This document shows positions 36,270 through 40,394 of a stretch of 64,000 bases of DNA, one piece after another. Made by a program: the position numbers and the translations under genes. Source of the DNA: Thermincola carboxydiphila (GTDB lineage: Bacteria > Bacillota > Thermincolia > Thermincolales > UBA2595); contig JAENYP010000001.1 in assembly GCA_016841725.1 (NCBI GenBank), forward strand, positions 548,540 to 612,539. Direction: 5' to 3'. Numbering within the stretch: the first letter of the stretch is position 1; each line of letters starts with the position of its first letter. The notes beneath the pieces were generated by a model. The model worked only from the letters and a program-made list of their open reading frames with translations, was not told the origin of the DNA and did not search any database.

Positions 36270-36872
36270 TCAAAACCCTGCGGTTGTTTCGTCCTTCCCA
36301 ATTCCGGTAATCCAGCCCGGATCTGCTGTGCACCAATAGATGTCATCCCGGCAAAGGTCATGAACCCATTTGGCAGTGATATAGATGCCTACCGCTCCCC
36401 TGTGGGCATGCAGTATCCCCCTGGGCTTACCTTCCGCGCCTGAGGCACAAAGGAGCAGATAGGGGTCTTCCGGCGCTACCCGGGTGATCTCATAGTCTCT
36501 TGAAGCCTCCGCCATCTCGTTGTGCCACTGAATATCTCCCTTTTTCAGAGTTCCACAGCCACCGACGACAAATACGTGTTTCAGTTCAGGTAATTTATTG
36601 GCTGGTATCCTGTTCCTAAGTTCTGGAGTGGTAATGATGGCTTTTGCCCCACTGTCTTTAAGCCTGTCAAATACCGCATCTTCCATAAAAGCCTCAAATA
36701 GAGGGACCGCTATAGCTCCTCTTTTTACAGTTCCCAGGAAACTCATATATAATTCCGGACATCTGGACATAAAAATACCCACCCGGTCGGTTTTACCAAT
36801 TCCGTATTTTTTCAGTACATTGGCAAATTTGTTGGAATAAGCCGCCATCTGTGCAAAAGTATATATTTCACA
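36270..36872 (-). pseudogene. truncated acetyl-CoA synthetase fragment
   Basis: About 200 residues of an acs-type AMP-forming synthetase: YTFAQMAAYSNKFANVLKKY, RVGIFMSRCPELYMSFLGTV, KRGAIAVPLF, LLCASGAEGKPRGILHAHRG and CTADPGWITG. The Ser/Thr/Gly-rich P-loop region reads ASGAEGKPRG where TSGTTGKPKG is usual. It ends abruptly about ten residues after WITG, where a full enzyme has about 350 more residues, and the N-terminal 60-80 residues are also missing. Probably non-functional. Confidence 0.85.
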
Positions 36873-39854: not shown

Positions 39855-40130
39855 TAAATATTAAAATAAGATATTCTACAAAAACTGTTTAAATTCCTTC
39901 GCCAACATCTAACTAATCTGTCGAAATTTTCGGTTTTCCTCTATTTTCATAATTTGACCATAATCTTGAAACTATATGCATGCCTTCCGGCATTTCGCAT
40001 TTTTGAAGCCAGCCTTCCGTATAACAGCCACAATATCAGGAAAATATAATCATTGATCGTTCAATATAAATTTTTTAGCTTCAGTGTTTTCGCAGCCTGA
40101 ATAATGTTAATCAAAGAAAGGGGTTTTCGG

Positions 40131-40364
40131 ATGGCAGATGAAGTTATTATGTACACTACTAAAACCTGACCGGCATGTCATCAGGTGAAAGAGTATCTTT
40201 CACGTAAAGGGGTCGGCTTCAGTGACTTTGACGTAGCCACAGATGCCAAAGCAAGGCAGGAAATGTCTGAAAAAACAGGAAGTATGGCCGTACCGACACT
40301 GGTCATCAACGGCGAAACCGTAATCGGTTTTGACAGGAAAAAAATTGATAGGCTTATACACTAG
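40131..40364 (+). CDS. glutaredoxin-like selenoprotein (UxxC), in-frame UGA read as Sec
   Basis: Thiol/selenol redox protein of 77 residues. Translation from the ATG at 40131 (after AAAGAAAGGGG) meets TGA at codon 13 (40167-40169) and then continues in frame to TAG at 40362. Reading TGA as selenocysteine gives MYTTKT-U-PACHQVKEYLS, which is the glutaredoxin/NrdH active site CPxC with the first Cys replaced, followed by MAVPTLVINGETVIGFD, the conserved cis-Pro and C-terminal motif. A stem-loop begins 15 bases after the TGA. Not found by ordinary gene callers because of the stop. It is followed by a terminator-like hairpin that overlaps the end of rnhA. sel genes are not in the window. Confidence 0.88.
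40185..40203 (+). promoter_or_regulatory. candidate bacterial SECIS stem-loop
   Basis: GTGAAAG-AGTAT-CTTTCAC: perfect 7-bp stem with a 5-base loop containing GU, its loop 23-27 bases after the UGA. Distance and loop fit bacterial SECIS elements bound by SelB. Confidence 0.7.
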
Positions 40365-40369
40365 CAAGG

Positions 40370-40394
40370 AGCGGGTTCATCAGGCCCGCTTTTT
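40370..40394 (+). terminator. terminator of the selenoprotein gene
   Basis: AGCGGG (40370-40375) and CCCGCT (40385-40390) followed by TTTT; it overlaps the last codons of the convergent rnhA. Confidence 0.7.

Follow-up and report, generated by a model that had tools for sequence, protein, structure and literature searches.

A conserved hairpin and an in-frame UGA predicted to encode selenocysteine in a glutaredoxin gene of Thermincola carboxydiphila

The 64,000-nucleotide stretch of Thermincola carboxydiphila DNA analysed here, hereafter the window, contains a gene for a 77-residue glutaredoxin that is almost certainly a genuine selenoprotein, with selenocysteine inserted at UGA codon 13 by means of SelB and a hairpin located downstream of the codon (Table 1). 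We infer the insertion itself, as well as the catalysis, substrate, and reductant of the protein. The reading frame extends from the ATG at 40131 to the TAG at 40362–40364, and its sole interruption is the TGA at 40167–40169. When the TGA is translated as selenocysteine (U), the product is MADEVIMYTTKTUPACHQVKEYLSRKGVGFSDFDVATDAKARQEMSEKTGSMAVPTLVINGETVIGFDRKKIDRLIH. The selenocysteine occupies the first, catalytic position of the active site U13-P-A-C16. The product matches the glutaredoxin family PF00462 of Pfam with 69.4 bits (cut-off 22.9, E=2.9e-19) and the YruB-family glutaredoxin-like model TIGR02196 of NCBIfam with 94.8 bits (cut-off 88.55). The translation and the two matches agree with the initial annotation of this DNA, which placed UGA codon 13 at the first position of a U-P-A-C motif in a 77-residue glutaredoxin. 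The good ribosome-binding site and normal stop codon that it described are also present, the former as AAAGGGG separated from the ATG by 7 nt.

Table 1 Features of the predicted selenocysteine glutaredoxin gene in the window
Feature	Position	Strand	Evidence
Probable ribosome-binding site AAAGGGG	40117–40123	+	Sequence; AAGGGG also 5′ of the orthologue at locus L025
Selenocysteine glutaredoxin gene (77 amino acids, UPAC active site)	40131–40364	+	Translation with TGA as U; PF00462 and TIGR02196 matches above cut-offs; kept in relatives
In-frame UGA, predicted to be read as selenocysteine, residue 13	40167–40169	+	24 sequences (the window's included) share this TGA, 13 have a Cys codon
TGT, resolving Cys16 of the UxxC motif	40176–40178	+	Invariant in the protein alignment
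bSECIS hairpin, 7-bp stem GUGAAAG/CUUUCAC, loop AGUAU with conserved GU	40185–40203	+	Folding; synonymous-recoding control; inner five pairs in 24/24
Probable intrinsic terminator, GCGGG...CCCGC followed by T5	40371–40394	+	Read from sequence; overlaps the end of the convergent rnhA

The hairpin GTGAAAG-AGTAT-CTTTCAC begins 15 nt 3′ of the UGA, which bears out the earlier report of a 7-bp stem-loop with a GU loop at that distance. Bacterial SECIS elements have been described as stem-loops positioned shortly 3′ of the UGA, with a small apical loop containing a G (PMC1088965). Judged by its sequence, the putative element in the window fits this description in its 7-bp stem, AGUAU loop, and 15-nt spacing. 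Of the 2387 TGA triplets found in the window on both strands and in any frame, only 5 have, 12–18 nt downstream, a 7-bp stem whose loop contains GU. Furthermore, when codons 18–26 of the gene were recoded synonymously at random 500 times, no variant folded as stably as the native sequence. These two results, together with the conservation of the arrangement in 24 distinct sequences, argue that the UGA and the hairpin are not associated by chance.

Homologues of the gene were found in 43 of the 149 related genomes searched, and the best of them nearly all contain a single internal TGA. A scan of public genomes identified 11 related loci, of which five have TGA at the corresponding codon and six have cysteine or are of a more distant form. 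After the removal of duplicates, the comparison set comprised 24 TGA sequences, including that of the window, and 13 cysteine sequences. The TGA sequences are nearly all from Bacillota, and one is labelled Abditibacteriales. The comparison with cysteine homologues that the initial annotation had suggested gave a Cys codon at the position of the UGA in the 13 sequences and TGA in the 24. Residue 13 is either Cys or TGA in the homologue alignments, and Cys occurs in the more distant homologues. The nearest named relative, from Thermincola ferriacetica (L025), is 90% identical and has matching neighbours, elongation factor G upstream and, on the other side, genes for ribonuclease HI and a GMC-type oxidoreductase, which by itself would suggest that the window comes from Thermincola or a near relative. 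This conservation bears on the alternative that a Cys codon, TGC or TGT, was turned into TGA by mutation or sequencing error, so that the gene is dead or misread. TGA differs from a Cys codon by one base, and the frame is broken if the TGA is a stop. However, the same TGA is present in 23 other distinct sequences with identities down to about 44%, the remaining frame of which is intact, and the hairpin is conserved along with it. We therefore rejected a pseudogene or sequencing error, which is extremely improbable, in favour of a predicted selenocysteine codon.

The hairpin accompanies the TGA and not the cysteine codon. Its core is located at the same distance from the TGA in all 24 TGA sequences, and the motif used in the search matched 23 of them. 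The remaining one (L048) has the stem CUGAAAG/CUUUCAG, in which the outer pair is changed on both sides. In contrast, the hairpin is absent from all 13 cysteine homologues compared. Glu21 is encoded by GAG and Leu23 by CTT throughout the TGA set despite the availability of synonyms, whereas both codons vary in the cysteine set. The mean stability z-score relative to synonymous recoding is −3.3 for the TGA set and −0.3 for the cysteine set. Stem positions are paired in 93.5% of cases, and with the stem shifted, this value is never above 64%. As the inner stem is nearly invariant, covariation is thin among the 24 sequences, with one two-sided change and five one-sided changes to GU. U20-A36, the second pair counted from the base, does not form in 9 of the 24 sequences, and thus firm conservation is limited to the loop and the five inner pairs. 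The DNA identity over the hairpin region is in part due to the conserved peptide VKE[YF]LS.

The TGA sequence labelled Abditibacteriales is located on a metagenome contig (L029:2501-2731). Its glutaredoxin is 51% identical in protein sequence to that of the window, and its 19-nt hairpin, GTGAAAGAGTATCTTTCAC, is identical. The GC content of the gene is 0.56, compared to 0.62 in its flanks. Horizontal transfer, mis-binning, or a strong constraint on the SECIS element are possible explanations.

The genome that contains the window is 3.88 Mb long and rated 99.99% complete. It encodes SelA (631.5 bits, cut-off 267.9) and SelB (357.7 bits, cut-off 242.25), and a selenocysteine tRNA that scores 71.7 bits against Rfam RF01852 and was called by ARAGORN as tRNA-SeC with the anticodon TCA. 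Two copies of selD (L020 and L021) contain one in-frame TGA each, and SelD thus appears from the sequence to be itself a selenoprotein twice over. The initial annotation had held that a selenocysteine pathway is implied in the organism and had proposed a search for selA, selB, selC, and selD; all of these genes were found, and neither of the counter-indications that it named, a lack of the machinery or a TGC/TGT codon, occurred. A homologue is present in 42 other genomes, 28 with a TGA form and 14 with cysteine forms only; selA occurs in 27 of the former and 7 of the latter (Fisher p=0.0008, calculated irrespective of kinship and, for the weakest TGA matches, of the position of the TGA). The only genome with a TGA homologue but no selA (G008) is 63% complete.

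The machinery is also relevant to the alternative that UGA is recoded throughout the genome as another residue, such as tryptophan, which yields the same open frame. Nevertheless, TGA terminates 8 of the 28 mechanically called open reading frames of at least 300 codons in the window, the genome has a selenocysteine tRNA with the TCA anticodon and the full selenocysteine machinery, and the aligned residue in homologues is cysteine. A genome-wide reassignment was rejected because of the long open reading frames ending with TGA, the machinery, and the conservation, and we give it next to no probability compared to the local reading of UGA13 as selenocysteine.

Adjacent to selB, a gene for a formate dehydrogenase-like alpha subunit (FdhA; L001:1-1098, minus strand) contains an in-frame TGA in the context ARI-U-HSSTVAGL and is predicted to be another selenoprotein gene of the genome. 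When the window was scanned by a hexamer-based method for additional genes with in-frame TGA codons, none were identified, at thresholds that also missed the glutaredoxin gene itself. Elsewhere in the window, a 192-residue open frame at 36270–36848 on the minus strand matches residues 80–265 of the 574 of an acetate-CoA ligase (NF003313) and lacks both ends. It is probably a truncated remnant beside a gene for a CooC/MinD-like ATPase.

Selenocysteine-containing glutaredoxins with a PF00462 domain and a UxxC motif are an established selenoprotein family (PMC13188914, PMC1794560, PMC1088965). The gene in the window has the domain, a UGA at the catalytic position with a Cys codon three residues later, and the machinery in the same genome, and is a further example of this family and not a new kind of protein. 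The product exceeds the curated cut-off of the YruB family, and in this member selenocysteine takes the place of the first active-site cysteine. The closest relative in the PDB is glutaredoxin 1 of Clostridium oremlandii (cGrx1; PDB: 7c10, E=4.5e-20; structures also 7c12 and 7c13), a native selenoprotein with catalytic residue 13 in a U/CPXC motif (PMC7642778), in keeping with the earlier remark that UxxC glutaredoxin-like selenoproteins are known in anaerobes. The two proteins are of about the same size, align end to end, and share the selenocysteine at position 13 and the UPxC motif. However, they differ in organism and sequence, and UPAC of the window protein aligns with CPHC of the crystallised cysteine form. 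Moreover, cGrx1 is paired with a selenocysteine-containing MsrA, whereas the PMSR match in the Thermincola genome has no in-frame stop. Selenocysteine glutaredoxins have also been reported from Geobacter sulfurreducens, Moorella thermoacetica, Alkaliphilus metalliredigenes, and marine metagenomes (PMC1794560, PMC1088965). They belong to the same listed family but to other lineages, and the comparison with them is one of family membership.

UXX-star proteins (NF041212, NF041114) are likewise small and glutaredoxin-like and can bear selenocysteine (PMC13188914), and the window protein has a weak match to NF041212. Nevertheless, the score of 55.5 bits is below the cut-off of 66, whereas TIGR02196 exceeds its own cut-off, and the protein retains the resolving cysteine in its UxxC motif. 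Furthermore, a separate cysteine-type protein of the same genome (C32, L010) is the one that exceeds the UXX-star cut-off. We therefore rejected the assignment to UXX-star, which is very unlikely, and retained that of a YruB-type glutaredoxin. The UXX-star member of the genome, encoded at L010:1495-1704, has a CPHC motif and scores 98.2 bits against the cut-off of 66.

By homology, the following mechanism can be proposed. The hairpin just 3′ of UGA13 would recruit SelB with Sec-tRNA(UCA), enabling the ribosome to insert selenocysteine at UGA13 instead of terminating. The mature product would be a 77-residue thioredoxin-fold protein with the active site U13-P-A-C16. In the redox cycle of the selenolate and thiol, attack of the U13 selenolate on a disulfide or mixed disulfide would give a selenenylsulfide, which Cys16 would resolve.

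The gene content of the genome bears on the possible reductant. Searches for two families of gamma-glutamylcysteine ligase, PF04107 and PF04262, gave no match in the 99.99% complete genome, and therefore the natural electron donor of the glutaredoxin may not be glutathione. The bacillithiol synthesis genes bshB1 and bshA are adjacent at L074:1480-3349 on the minus strand, with both BshA and BshB1 above the cut-off, and two thioredoxin reductases are also above the cut-off. Judged by this gene content, with these genes present and the ligase not found, a role linked to bacillithiol or thioredoxin reductase is no less likely than one linked to glutathione. We tentatively suggest that in this lineage the selenocysteine glutaredoxin could work without glutathione, as a bacillithiol-linked redoxin ("seleno-bacilliredoxin") or a thioredoxin-reductase-linked one. 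Among the titles retrieved, none pointed to a paper linking a selenocysteine glutaredoxin with bacillithiol. The bacillithiol synthesis genes occur here in a selenocysteine-using bacterium.

The gene adds a selenoprotein backed by comparative genomics to a Thermincola-like bacterium, of a kind that gene finders treating UGA as a stop easily lose or shorten. As no glutathione synthesis was detected, it raises the question of which reductant serves a seleno-glutaredoxin in bacteria that make bacillithiol. The core of the SECIS element is exceptionally conserved, with synonymous sites frozen across families, which makes it a test case for how recognition by SelB constrains a coding sequence.
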